In this document: one piece after another, positions 278 through 16,452 of the stretch
Numbering within the stretch: the first letter of the stretch is position 1
Layout: the number at the start of each line of letters is the position of its first letter
Program-made: the position numbers and the translations under genes
Assembly (NCBI RefSeq): GCF_022760955.1
Contig: NZ_JAKTNU010000017.1
Location: forward strand, 1-36,985
DNA length: 36,985 nucleotides
Direction of reading: 5' to 3'
Origin: Thermus neutrinimicus
GTDB lineage: Bacteria > Deinococcota > Deinococci > Deinococcales > Thermaceae
Notes under the pieces: generated by a model
What the model saw: the letters and a program-made list of their open reading frames with translations, nothing else
Told to the model about the DNA's origin: nothing
Database searches by the model: none

Positions 278-2307
278 ATCCCACACCGCAAGAGGTTCGT
301 TTCACCATGATAGGGGTCCTACTCGGGGTTTTGTTGGCGGCCCTGGACCAGACCATCGTGTCCACCGCCATGCCCCGCATCGTGGGGGAGCTTAGGGGAG
401 CCGAGTACTACGCCTGGGTCACCACCAGCTACCTTCTCACCTCCACGGTTTCCGCCCCCATCTTTGGGAGGCTGACCGAGCTCTTCTCCCGTAAGGCGGT
501 TTTGCTTTGGGCGGTAAGCCTTTTCCTTCTGGGTTCGGCCCTTTCCGGCCTTTCCCAGAACATGGCCCAGCTCATCCTCTTCCGGGGGCTCCAGGGGGTG
601 GGGGGTGGGGCCCTTTTCGCCCTGGCCCTCACCACCATCGCCGTGCTCTTTCCCCCAAGGGAGCGGGGGAAGCTTTCCGGGGCCTTCGGGGCCATCTTCG
701 GCCTTTCCTCCGCGGTGGGACCCTGGCTGGGGGGCCTCCTCACCGACCACCTTTCCTGGAGGTGGGTGTTTTACATCAACATGCCTGTGGGCGCGGTGGC
801 CCTTTGGTTCATCCTGCGCTACATGCCGCGGCTTCGTCCTGGCGGGCGGGAACCCTTTGACTTTCTCGGAGCCCTCCTCCTCATCCTTTGGACGGTACCC
901 CTTATGCTGGCCTTTTCCTGGGGCGGAAGTACCTATCCTTGGGGGAGCCCGGAGATCCTGGGACTTTTCGCCTTGGCCTTCCTGGGGCTTATCCTTTGGA
1001 TCTGGACGGAGAACCGGCTTCCTTACCCGCTTTTTGACCTGTCAGTTTTTCGGGAACGGGTCTTCAGCCTTTCGGCAGCGGCGGCCTTCTTTTATGGCCC
1101 GGCCTTTCTGGGCGCCGTGGCCTTCCTGCCCCTCTACCTGCAGGTGGTGAAGGGGGTTTCTGCCAGCCAAAGCGGGGTTACCGTTTTGCCCCTCACCCTT
1201 GGCGTGGTGGTGGGGAGCCTGGGTGGAGGCCAGCTCCTGGCTCGCTTCGGACGGTATAAGGTCCTTCTCCTGGTGAGCGCCGGGTTTTTATTGGCTATTT
1301 TCCTGTTCCTCCACTTCACCCTTACGGTGGGAACCCCTCTGGTGGAGGTGGTGGGCCTCTTCTTCCTCTTGGGCCTTGGCCTGGGTCCGGCCCAGAGCGT
1401 CCTCAACATCGTGGCCCAAAGCGGCCTACCCAAGGAGCGCGTGGGAAGCGGAACCAGCATGGTGCAGTTCATGCGCCAGATCGGGTCCACCATGGGCATC
1501 GCCTTGCTGGGAACCATTCTGGCGCAAAGCCTCACCCAGCACCTCAAGGATGCTTTTCCCTCCGGGGCCTCCACCCCTGCCCTAAGCCGCGCGGGTGAGG
1601 GAATGGCCCTGGACCTGGACCGGGAGTTTGTCCGCCTCGAGGACCTTCTGGAGAAGGCCCTCAAGGGAGACCAGGGAGCTTACCAGGCCTTGAAGGCGGA
1701 TCCCTTTCTACCCGAGGATCTCAAGAAAACCCTGAGGCCTGGGGGCATTCCCGCCCAGTTTGCCGAGGTTCGGACTCTGGTTACCCAGGCCCTGCGGGGA
1801 GATGAGGAGGCGCGAAAGGCGCTTTTGGCGGATTCCACCTTGTCACCCGAGGTGAAGGCCCTTCTCCTTCCTGGCGGGGTGGCTCAGGGCACGTTTTCCC
1901 TGTTGGAACGGGCTTGGTCCGGGGATGGGGTGGCCAAGGAGGCCCTCCTCGGCTTGCCCTGGGGCCAGGGCCTGGAGGGGCTGTTGGGCGCACCTTCCTC
2001 TCCTGCCATGAGGGCTCGGGTTACGTCCTTTCTCAAGGCCCTGGAGGACAGGGTGGTGGCCGAGACGCAGGCTTCCTTGAAAAGGGCTGAGGCCCAGGCC
2101 CTGAGCCAGGTGCCCGCCCAGGTGGTGGCCCGCCTCGAGGGAGTTCGGCTCAAGCTCAAGGAAGCCTTGCAGGTGGGCATCGTGGAGGCTCTTCGGGGGA
2201 TTTTTCTCCTCAGCACCTTTTTTATAGGCCTTTCCCTGGTGGCCTTGGTGTTCCTGCCCGACCGGGAGCTTTCGGGGGGCCTCGGGCCCCGCCCTTCGCT
2301 AGAGTGA
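274..2307 (+). CDS. DHA2-family (EmrB/QacA-like, 14-TM) MFS multidrug exporter with periplasmic repeat insert
   Basis: Proton-coupled drug exporter of the major facilitator superfamily, inner membrane. Visible signatures are LDQTIVSTAMPRIVGEL in TM1 (residues 24-40), motif A GRLTELFSRK (65-74), RGLQGVGGGALFA in TM4 (104-116) and the motif C region GLSSAVGPWLGG in TM5 (143-154), followed by WRWVFYINMPVG. TM13 ends near residue 420 (MRQIGSTMGIALLGTILAQ) and TM14 is at about 640-661. Between them lies a hydrophilic segment of about 210 residues (425-635) where relatives usually have a short loop. It contains two clear and one weaker copy of a roughly 45-residue unit and ends in a long charged helix. 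With an N-in topology this loop faces outside. At 677 aa the protein is longer than typical 450-550 aa DHA2 members. The substrate is unknown. It is 4 nt upstream of the 5-oxoprolinase gene. Confidence 0.9.
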   Translation: MNPTPQEVRFTMIGVLLGVLLAALDQTIVSTAMPRIVGELRGAEYYAWVTTSYLLTSTVSAPIFGRLTELFSRKAVLLWAVSLFLLGSALSGLSQNMAQLILFRGLQGVGGGALFALALTTIAVLFPPRERGKLSGAFGAIFGLSSAVGPWLGGLLTDHLSWRWVFYINMPVGAVALWFILRYMPRLRPGGREPFDFLGALLLILWTVPLMLAFSWGGSTYPWGSPEILGLFALAFLGLILWIWTENRLPYPLFDLSVFRERVFSLSAAAAFFYGPAFLGAVAFLPLYLQVVKGVSASQSGVTVLPLTLGVVVGSLGGGQLLARFGRYKVLLLVSAGFLLAIFLFLHFTLTVGTPLVEVVGLFFLLGLGLGPAQSVLNIVAQSGLPKERVGSGTSMVQFMRQIGSTMGIALLGTILAQSLTQHLKDAFPSGASTPALSRAGEGMALDLDREFVRLEDLLEKALKGDQGAYQALKADPFLPEDLKKTLRPGGIPAQFAEVRTLVTQALRGDEEARKALLADSTLSPEVKALLLPGGVAQGTFSLLERAWSGDGVAKEALLGLPWGQGLEGLLGAPSSPAMRARVTSFLKALEDRVVAETQASLKRAEAQALSQVPAQVVARLEGVRLKLKEALQVGIVEALRGIFLLSTFFIGLSLVALVFLPDRELSGGLGPRPSLE

Positions 2308-2311
2308 GGGG

Positions 2312-3850
2312 GTGGACGGCTTTTACCTGGCCTTTGGCGAGGGGCTCTCCCAGGAGGCTAACCGCCTGGCCCAGGCTCTGGCTCGCCTTCTTCTAGAGGA
2401 TCCCCCCGAAGGGCTTTGGGAGGCGGTTCCCGCTTACGGCACCCTGTACCTAGAGTACGATCCCAGAAGGCTTTCCCGGAAAGGGCTCCTGGGGCTTGTC
2501 TCCCGCCTCGAGGCCACCCTGGCCGGGGGTGGGGAAGAGGGCAGGCGGGTAGAGATCCCCGTGCGCTACGATGGGGAGGACCTCTTGGAGGTGGCCGGGC
2601 GCACGGGGCTTTCCCTGGAGGAGGTGAAACAGCTACACCAGGCGCCTCTTTACCGGGTCTACGCCTTGGGGTTTACCCCCGGCTTCCCCTTTTTGGCCCC
2701 GGTGGAGCCGGCCCTACGCCTGCCCCGCCGCCCCCACCCGAGGCCCCGGGTGCCGGCCCACGCGGTGGCCATGGCCGGGGCCCAGACGGGCATCTACCCC
2801 CTGCCCTCCCCTGGAGGGTGGCACCTTTTGGGCACCGCCTTGGTGGCCGTCTACGACCCGCACCGGGAGGAACCCTTTCTCCTTAGGCCAGGGGACCGGG
2901 TGCGTTTCCGGGAAGCCGAGGGTGCCCCTCCTCCGGAGCCTCTTCCCTTGGCCCTTCTTCCTGAGGAACCCAGGATTCCTGCCCTACGGGTGGAGGAGCC
3001 AGGCCTTCTGGACCTGGTGGTGGATGGGGGAAGGTTCCGGGCGGGGCACCTGGGGTTGGCCCGTTCCGGGCCATTGGATCCCTACTCCGCCTCCCTGGCC
3101 AACCGCCTGGTGGGGAATCCCCCGGGCGCACCCCTTTTGGAGGTGGCCTACCGCGGCCCGGTCCTCACTGCCCTTAGGGACCTGGTGGCGGCGGTGGCGG
3201 GGTATGGGCTTGCCGCCCTCCTGGATAGGGAGGAGATCCCGCCGGGCCGGAGCTTCTTCTGGCCCAGGGGCAAACCCCTCTCCTTTCGGCCCCAGGGCCG
3301 GGGGGCCAGGGTTTACCTGGCGGTGGCGGGGGGCCTCGAGGGCCGTCCCTTTATGGGTTCCGTGTCCCCGGATCTCCGGGGCAGGATCGGTCGCCCGTTG
3401 CAGGCGGGGGATACCCTGGGCCTGGGGGAGAAGAGGGCGGTGCGGCCAGGACTGGCCTTCCAGCAAAGGCCCTTGCCGGAAGCCCTTCGCCTCCGTCTCC
3501 TTCCCGGGCCCCAGTTTTCCTGGGAAGCCTTTAGGGCGTTGCTTTCCCGCCCCTTCCGGGTGGTGCGGGCGGACCGGATGGGCGTGGAGCTCCTGGGACC
3601 AGAGGTGCCCGGGGGGGAGGGGCTTTCCGAGGCCACGCCCTTAGGGAGTATCCAGGTGCCCCCCTCCGGGCGCCCCCTGGTGCTCTTAGCGGACAAGGGA
3701 AGCCTGGGGGGCTACGCGAAGCCTGCCAGGGTTCACCCGAAGGACCTTTGGCTTCTCGGCCAGGCATGGCCCGGAGCGGAGCTTGTCTTCACGAGCGATT
3801 TATATCGTGACAAGTGGCACATATCCCCAGTCCTACCAGGGGAAGACTAG
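2312..3850 (+). CDS. pxpBC: 5-oxoprolinase subunits PxpB-PxpC fusion (KipI-KipA type)
   Basis: ATP-dependent opening of 5-oxoproline to glutamate by the Pxp complex, cytoplasmic. Residues 1 to about 210 form the PxpB/KipI (allophanate hydrolase subunit 1) domain, with the signature GFTPGFPFL and the later AGAQTGIYPLPSPGGWHLLG. Residues about 225-512 form the PxpC/KipA (subunit 2) domain, with GLLDLVVDGGRFRAGHLGLARSG, LDPYSASLANRLVGNP and a C-terminal GGYAKPARVHPKDLWLLGQ. In many bacteria these are two genes; here they are one 512-aa chain. The GTG start at 2312 is preceded by GAGGGG and lies 4 nt after the exporter stop, so the two are probably co-transcribed. The third subunit, PxpA (LamB/YcsF family), is not in the window and must be encoded elsewhere if the enzyme is complete. 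It converges on the thiolase gene with only 8 nt between stops. Confidence 0.9.
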   Translation: MDGFYLAFGEGLSQEANRLAQALARLLLEDPPEGLWEAVPAYGTLYLEYDPRRLSRKGLLGLVSRLEATLAGGGEEGRRVEIPVRYDGEDLLEVAGRTGLSLEEVKQLHQAPLYRVYALGFTPGFPFLAPVEPALRLPRRPHPRPRVPAHAVAMAGAQTGIYPLPSPGGWHLLGTALVAVYDPHREEPFLLRPGDRVRFREAEGAPPPEPLPLALLPEEPRIPALRVEEPGLLDLVVDGGRFRAGHLGLARSGPLDPYSASLANRLVGNPPGAPLLEVAYRGPVLTALRDLVAAVAGYGLAALLDREEIPPGRSFFWPRGKPLSFRPQGRGARVYLAVAGGLEGRPFMGSVSPDLRGRIGRPLQAGDTLGLGEKRAVRPGLAFQQRPLPEALRLRLLPGPQFSWEAFRALLSRPFRVVRADRMGVELLGPEVPGGEGLSEATPLGSIQVPPSGRPLVLLADKGSLGGYAKPARVHPKDLWLLGQAWPGAELVFTSDLYRDKWHISPVLPGED

Positions 3851-15494: not shown

Positions 15495-16409
15495 TTAAAG
15501 CTCGGGTAGCCTCGAGGCCGCCTCCCTAAGCCGTTCCCGAGAAGCGTGCAGGTAGATCTGGGTGGTGGCAATGGACTCGTGGCCTAGGAGGTCCTTCACC
15601 GCGTCCAGCTCCACGCCGTTTTCCACCAGCAAGGTGGCGTAGGCGTGGCGGAGCTTGTGCGGGGTGAAGCGCCTGGCGTCCAAGCCCGCCCTTAGGGCGG
15701 CCTCCCGGAACCGGGCCTCCACGTACCGGGCGGAGGGCACCCGGCCCCGGTGCCGCCCTTGGGAGAAGGTGAAAAGAGGCACATTACCTTGGGGCGGACC
15801 CAGCTCCAGAAGCACTTCCCGGGCGGTCTTGGAAAGGGGTACCAGCCTTTCCTTGTTCCCCTTGCCCACCACCCGGATGGCCGCGGGAACCGAGCCCTCG
15901 AGGATCACGTTCCGGCCCTTCAGGGAAAGGGCCTCGGAGATACGAAGCCCCGTGCCGTAGAGGAACCGGGCTAGGTGGCTGAGGAGCTTGGCCTCCCTTT
16001 CGGCCCCCAGGGCCTCGAGGAAGCGCTTGAGCTCCTCAGGGCCCGGGTGCAAGGGAAGCCTGCGCCCGGCCTTGGGACGACCAATGCCCTCCGTGGGATC
16101 GGACACCGCCTCGCCCCTGACCTGGGCCAGGTAGCGGTAATAGCTGCGGAGGGCTGCCAGAAACCCCTGCACCCTCCTGGGGGCCCAACGCTCCTTGAGG
16201 AGGAGGGCCCGCACCGCCTCGGGGCCCGGGGTGAAACCTCCCTCCTCGAGGAAGCGGAGCCAAAAGGCCAGGTCCTGCAGGTAGCGGCGCACCCCCCGGG
16301 GGGAGTAACCCCTTTCCAGGAGGAGGTATTCCGCATAGGGGGCTAGGCCGTGAAGGGCCTTATCGGGCTTTTTAACACCGATGGTTTTCCATATAAGCGC
16401 CTGCTCCAC
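15495..16409 (-). CDS. Xer-type tyrosine recombinase
   Basis: Site-specific recombinase of the XerC/XerD family, normally resolving chromosome dimers at dif near the replication terminus. It has the N-terminal SAM-like core-binding domain (residues about 20-105: YAEYLLLERGYSPRGVRRYLQDL) and the catalytic domain with Arg156 in GTGLRISEAL, Lys183 in VVGKGNKERLVPL, His251 and Arg254 in HKLRHAYATLL, His277 in LLGHESIATTQ and nucleophile Tyr286. The full catalytic set is intact. At 304 aa it is the usual size. The GTG at 16409 follows a TATAAT box by 6 nt with no Shine-Dalgarno sequence. A dif-like site overlaps the promoter. A prophage or integrative-element integrase is less likely because no such genes surround it. 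Confidence 0.9.
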   Translation of the reverse strand: MEQALIWKTIGVKKPDKALHGLAPYAEYLLLERGYSPRGVRRYLQDLAFWLRFLEEGGFTPGPEAVRALLLKERWAPRRVQGFLAALRSYYRYLAQVRGEAVSDPTEGIGRPKAGRRLPLHPGPEELKRFLEALGAEREAKLLSHLARFLYGTGLRISEALSLKGRNVILEGSVPAAIRVVGKGNKERLVPLSKTAREVLLELGPPQGNVPLFTFSQGRHRGRVPSARYVEARFREAALRAGLDARRFTPHKLRHAYATLLVENGVELDAVKDLLGHESIATTQIYLHASRERLREAASRLPEL

Positions 16410-16415
16410 AGGGGG

Positions 16416-16421
16416 ATTATA
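16416..16421 (-). promoter_or_regulatory. -10 element of the recombinase gene (leaderless)
   Basis: Perfect TATAAT on the minus strand, 6 nt before the GTG start. The expected -35 region falls within the dif-like site at 16425-16452, so recombinase binding there would affect its own transcription. Confidence 0.6.
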
Positions 16422-16424
16422 TCA

Positions 16425-16452
16425 TATACGCGAAATGTACCTTTCGCGAACA
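16425..16452. other. Candidate dif / Xer recombination site
   Basis: The 28 bp have the dif layout of 11-6-11: left arm TATACGCGAAA, spacer TGTACC, right arm TTTCGCGAACA. The inner 7 bp of the arms are perfect inverted repeats (CGCGAAA/TTTCGCG) and 9 of 11 positions match overall. The spacer resembles the TGTATA of E. coli dif. It lies in a locally AT-rich gap immediately upstream of the Xer-type gene, as reported for single-recombinase XerS and XerH systems. Function is inferred from structure and position only. Confidence 0.6.

Follow-up and report, generated by a model that had tools for sequence, protein, structure and literature searches.

A Probable Chromosomal dif Site in the Promoter of a Single Xer Recombinase Gene of Thermus

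We have analyzed a 36,985-nucleotide stretch of DNA from Thermus neutrinimicus (contig NZ_JAKTNU010000017.1, here called the window), a member of a genus of hot-spring bacteria, in which a 28-bp site directly precedes a gene for a tyrosine recombinase of 304 amino acids. The two are very probably, at a rough probability of 0.9, the chromosomal dif of Thermus and its single recombinase, Xer. This reading, in the style of XerS/difSL, rests on arms that are ~98% identical between species against ~28% for the flank, on a position opposite dnaA, and on the change in GC skew at the site. The site would almost certainly serve to separate joined chromosome copies.

Results and Discussion

The dif Site and the xer Gene

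The first-pass annotation of the window had claimed an 11-6-11 Xer-like site, and both the arms and the spacer can be read directly from the forward strand, which is TATACGCGAAA TGTACC TTTCGCGAACA at positions 16425–16452. As in Xer/dif sites generally, two inverted 11-bp arms surround 6 bp, and the inner arms, CGCGAAA/TTTCGCG, pair perfectly. When as many as three mismatches were allowed, the 28-mer was found once in the 2.06-Mb genome, and the reversed control gave no match. No element integrated at this dif was seen, since a second GGTACA site was not found. The coordinates of the features are presented in Table 1.

Table 1. Features of the xer-dif region in the window and related loci in other Thermus genomes
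Feature	Position	Strand	Remarks
xer, complete gene for the 304-aa Xer-type tyrosine recombinase	15495..16409	(-)	GTG start at 16409
-10 element TATAAT of xer	16416..16421	(-)	3 nt from the dif site
dif site, 11-6-11	16425..16452	(-)	gene strand TGTTCGCGAAA-GGTACA-TTTCGCGTATA
promoter-proximal recombinase-binding arm (predicted), TTTCGCGTATA	16425..16435	(-)	inner 9 bases, 97.5% mean pairwise identity
6-bp spacer GGTACA, presumed strand-exchange region	16436..16441	(-)	common to 23/26 chromosomal sites
gene-distal recombinase-binding arm (predicted), TGTTCGCGAAA	16442..16452	(-)	inner 9 bases, ~98% mean pairwise identity in Thermus
chromosomal elements with a phage-type integrase and a dif-like site	L084, L085, L086, L092, L096, L099, L103; G008:C1:1275534; G026:C1:1089277; G003:C3:579632

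The adjacent gene had been described as encoding a complete tyrosine recombinase with all of the catalytic residues, and this was confirmed. The protein has the Pfam domains Phage_integrase and SAM-like N-domain, and alignment to XerD places the catalytic set at R156, K183, H251, R254, H277, and Y286, an intact R-K-HxxR-H-Y series that is invariant among 11 homologues. It is the sole match at E ≤ 0.001 in the genome to which the window belongs, where the proposed single-recombinase, gene-linked arrangement therefore holds. The protein falls below every curated Xer cutoff with which it was compared. The scores with the NCBIfam models for XerC, XerD, XerA, and XerS were determined to be 171, 159, 134, and 66.5, against cutoffs of 335, 330, 220, and 267, respectively, and the 6-bp center of the site also sets the pair apart from XerS. 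With XerH, only residues 112–299 could be aligned by phmmer, and the similarity is thus confined to the catalytic half. Relatives outside the phylum were sought broadly in genome collections, and all that were returned are canonical XerC/XerD-like proteins of ~27–37% identity. FtsK with a gamma domain was found in all 10 of the Thermus examined.

Since the GTG start lies only 6 nt past the -10 element, the xer mRNA is probably leaderless, and the same would apply to the orthologues, nearly all of which have 5–6 nt at this place. TATAAT or TATACT adjoins the 28-mer or lies no more than 3 nt away in 24 of 26 orthologues; the -10 element overlaps the end of the site in G019 and is detached from it in G013. 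The proposal that the site overlaps the -35 region stands in part: the site lies in the -35 zone, but nothing resembling TTGACA can be recognized upstream of the -10 element at a spacing of 16–18 bp. Because the site abuts the -10 element, the binding of Xer and of RNA polymerase should be mutually exclusive. Bound Xer would then block transcription of xer, and autorepression is likely. In the plasmid-borne paralogue of xer (L028–L031), a GC-rich, hairpin-like stretch lies between the -10 element and the ribosome-binding site, whereas the chromosomal gene appears to be leaderless.

Conservation in Thermus

Three findings had been named that would count against a dif. The first two are a site missing or degenerate upstream of the xer orthologues, and a site present many times; neither was obtained with 27 Thermus genomes and the upstream regions of their 26 xer orthologues. 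The site lies 5′ of xer in 26 of the 27 genomes, which are all of those that have the gene, and a single copy per genome has a spacer of the chromosomal type. It is embedded in the promoter in 25 of the 26; in the other (G013:C52, L023) a site with the spacer GGTAGC is kept at a distance of ~200 bp from that promoter. Among the 26 orthologues, the mean identities are 98.4 and 97.5% for the inner nine bases of the two arms, 87.6% for the spacer, 51% for the 30 bases downstream, and 28–29%, equal to random, for the 40–80 bases upstream. The spacer GGTACA is found in 23 of the 26 sites, and G007, G013, and G023 have others between intact arms. A search of the 27 genomes for TTCGCGAAA-N6-TTTCGCGAA with at most one mismatch gave one to four sites in 25 of them and none in any with the reversed control. 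The pattern also matched viral contigs 18 times; these contigs are of mixed GC content, none matches Thermus DNA, and the matches were treated as chance.

Position at the Terminus

The distance from dnaA was measured in eight chromosomes whose assemblies have a single main contig. In these, the site was found at 0.528, 0.546, 0.484, 0.476, 0.516, 0.507, 0.516, and 0.517 of the circle, values that are not independent because gene order is partly common to these species. In the same eight chromosomes, ftsK, used as a control for gene order, has a folded distance of 0.28–0.45 from dnaA. The GC skew of neighboring 20-kb samples was +0.036, −0.007, and −0.042 in G008 and +0.031, −0.006, and −0.027 in G007, with the change of sign in the stretch that holds the site. 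G026 has the expected trend in sign, but it is weak and noisy. In the window, the skew is +0.023 to the left of the site and −0.038 to the right; the genome is a 42-contig draft, and its own terminus is therefore placed from relatives and from this local skew.

The suggestion that the site marks the replication terminus is borne out by its location opposite dnaA in 8/8 chromosomes and at the skew change in the two clearest cases, G008 and G007; the third finding named against a dif, a site far from the terminus defined by skew, was not obtained. Each chromosome has one such site, at the terminus or skew switch, and in some there are also integrated elements whose sites have other spacers. Conservation, position, and copy number together support its identification as dif. 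The octamers GAGGTTTT (71:15) and GGTTTTGG (103:37) are skewed toward the leading strand (L104–L163) and are candidate FtsK-orienting sequences, although they are confounded by the overall skew.

Plasmids and Integrated Elements

Nineteen named Thermus plasmids were searched over their full length, with no match in the reversed control. Arms of the chromosomal type are carried by 16 of the 19, in some small plasmids with three mismatches; pL4C has only a site of the paralogue type, and no recognizable site was found at the search threshold in pTHEOS01 and pTA16, both searched in full. The spacer GCTACG/CGTAGC is present in all eight of the pTT27-type megaplasmids searched (HB8, HB27, SG0.5JP17-16, JL-18, TTHNAR1, SNM6-6, TF19, and HC11). 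No recombinase is found among the 14 annotated CDS of pTT8, and its site would therefore need one that acts in trans. The 40 sites that we catalogued apart from the chromosomal dif have 24 different spacers, and GGTACA is not among them (0/40 sites); the same spacer occurs on two plasmids of one genome only in G003.

Two small pTT8-like plasmids, L102 (G000:C28, positions 139 and 3885) and pTF62 (positions 3340 and 7034), have two dif-like sites ~3.7 kb apart with different spacers. Some megaplasmid sites (L091, at G007:C2:180200; L089; L094) are followed by apparent remnants of the start of xer, which suggests former site-xer modules from which the gene was lost. Chromosomal mobile elements with phage-type integrases of 391–460 aa (Table 1) have an intact dif-like site with a nonchromosomal spacer, close to the integrase gene or as much as ~350 bp 5′ of it; these sites possibly resolve multimers of the excised circle.

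In Vibrio and other Proteobacteria, nonhomologous chromosomes have divergent central regions that were proposed to prevent fusion (PMC2533119). To judge from the sequences collected here, Thermus extends such replicon-specific centers to plasmids and integrated elements.

Proposed Mechanism

Homologous recombination between replicated chromosomes would join them in a dimer, and the two copies of dif would be brought together at the terminus, probably by FtsK. Four Xer monomers would bind the near-identical arms and cut at the borders between arms and spacer, and strand exchange across the 6 bp would restore the monomers. Because both arms are nearly the same, one Xer protein could fill all four positions and replace XerC and XerD. 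The same enzyme could resolve multimers of plasmids and mobile elements, the arms being alike, and spacer mismatch would keep these from fusing with the chromosome; spacers would have to match between partners, and thus each replicon would recombine with its own copy. Thermus is polyploid, and the need for dimer resolution is for this reason less obvious.

Alternative Explanations

The palindrome could instead be an operator only, at which Xer or another dimeric regulator controls xer with no recombination. This would account for a site that adjoins the -10 element in nearly all orthologues, and for the palindromes found in the same place with homologous Xers (see below), but it leaves unexplained why the site should lie opposite dnaA and where the skew changes, why copies occur on plasmids that have no recombinase, and why the spacing is fixed at 6 bp when spacers vary freely. 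The site of G013, moreover, persists ~200 bp from the promoter. We regard an operator without recombination as very unlikely, and slightly less credit still is due to an attachment site of a mobile element, with Xer as its integrase. Related sites do occur near the phage-type integrases of chromosomal elements, and related Xers are found on plasmids; however, all eight of the chromosomes measured have the gene at the terminus, the upstream flanks of different species are unrelated, and the genome has no second matching site. A single copy per genome has the GGTACA-type spacer.

Chance or composition has almost no probability as the source of the match. A relative of the core pattern with one mismatch is present elsewhere in the window (1811–1830), and for the length of the window the expected number of matches with three or fewer mismatches is about one, but the reversed control gave none in 27 genomes at one mismatch, and the orthologous conservation next to a random flank has already refuted this explanation.

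Comparison with Known Systems

The dif with its single recombinase in Thermus is most readily compared with XerS/difSL of streptococci and lactococci, where one recombinase also has its site immediately beside its gene and at the terminus (PMC5357621). XerS is longer, at 356 aa, and the 31 bp of difSL include a center of 11 bp (PMC5357621), whereas the Thermus protein has 304 aa and its site has near-symmetric arms and a 6-bp center. XerH/difH of Helicobacter and Campylobacter is alike in its single recombinase, often gene-linked site, and variable 6-bp center (PMC2731167), but the difH arms are of the TTGAAAA type (table in PMC2731167) and are unrelated to CGCGAAA. Archaeal XerA/dif likewise uses a single recombinase on a 28-bp dif (PMC5357621, PMC2958812); the Thermus enzyme falls well short of the XerA cutoff, as noted above. 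Vibrio cholerae uses the two recombinases XerCD for dif1 and dif2, whereas in Thermus one enzyme would suffice and the principle reaches megaplasmids, small plasmids, and integrated elements. With ColE1 cer and the host XerCD, the recombinase that resolves the plasmid site is encoded by the chromosome (PMC5357621), as is predicted for Thermus; cer is, however, a 280-bp region that requires accessory proteins, whereas the Thermus plasmid sites resemble bare dif sites.

A literature search for Thermus together with dif or Xer, whose coverage took in few subscription papers, returned no description of the system, and Thermus is not mentioned in a review of single recombinases, a survey of Proteobacteria, and the main text of a dif prediction survey. 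The recombination assays in a 2022 study of FtsK from Deinococcus radiodurans used XerCD and dif of E. coli (PMC9764985). The phylum now has a dif and a recombinase that can be tested, and this in a model thermophile that is polyploid, takes up DNA by natural transformation, and has megaplasmids. The many natural sites in which the arms are constant and the spacer varies can be used to test whether spacer mismatch separates replicons, and a heat-stable, one-protein recombination system may be useful for tools.

Other Recombinases and a Possible Exchange of the Module

The xer paralogue carried by plasmids of Thermus and by some megaplasmids of the pTT27 type is 47–48% identical and has its own site, TTCGCCAAA-N6-TTTTGCGAA, beside a TATACT box. 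Homologues from Meiothermus (57%), G066 (46%), and G061 (36%) likewise have 11-6-11 sites at this place in the promoter, with the sequences TTTTATGGAAA-TCGGCA-TTTCCATAAAC, CTTCGTAAAGG-AAGTAT-CCTTTACGAAG, and TATTCGCCAAA-TAGTTA-TTTTGCGAACT, respectively. The arms change with the recombinase, as would be expected of sites that are recognized by the protein encoded beside them.

No XerD above the cutoff was found in the 111 genomes of the phylum sample. Many genomes of the phylum do have a second Xer, of ~347 aa (L335–L354), which is 25–35% identical to the 304-aa protein of Thermus; each of the two forms a clade of its own with a support of 100. At 15 of 19 readable loci, an 11-6-11 repeat lies directly 5′ of the -10 element of the second xer, with the start codon a few bases further on, as with ATTTCCCTTAA-GGTAAA-TTAAGGGAAAT in G052 and ATGCGCACTTA-TTTTCC-TAAGTGCGCAT in G065. 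The gene is at 0.51, 0.53, 0.50, and 0.52 of the circle from dnaA in G057, G035, G037, and G067, respectively; the exception is G051, at 0.68. Two non-orthologous recombinases are thus predicted to hold one role with the same promoter-embedded layout of the site, and in the genus Thermus the whole xer-dif pair, a chromosome dimer-resolution module, appears to have been exchanged as one unit. Outside Thermus, plasmid genes from Meiothermus and Deinococcus are among the identifiable members of the 304-aa clade, which suggests that the 304-aa Xer came from a plasmid.

A joint reading, to which we assign somewhat less than even odds, is that a plasmid-type Xer with its site took over the Thermus terminus and replaced an older Xer of ~350 aa with its dif, which many Deinococcota have kept. 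In both modules dif would be part of the promoter and xer would probably be leaderless, so that occupancy, recombination, and enzyme supply would form one feedback unit. Shared arms with replicon-specific spacers would act as address codes, by which one enzyme would avoid fusing the chromosome, megaplasmid, small plasmids, and integrated elements that it serves.

G015 is the sole genome of the 27 that lacks both the 304-aa xer and its site. It has instead a second Xer of ~355 aa (G015:C23:63184, L355) with its own site in the promoter region, ATCCTCACTAA-GATTGC-TTAGTGAGCAT. In the tree this gene groups with that of G043 and not with Meiothermus, and G015 may therefore have either retained the older module or re-acquired it.
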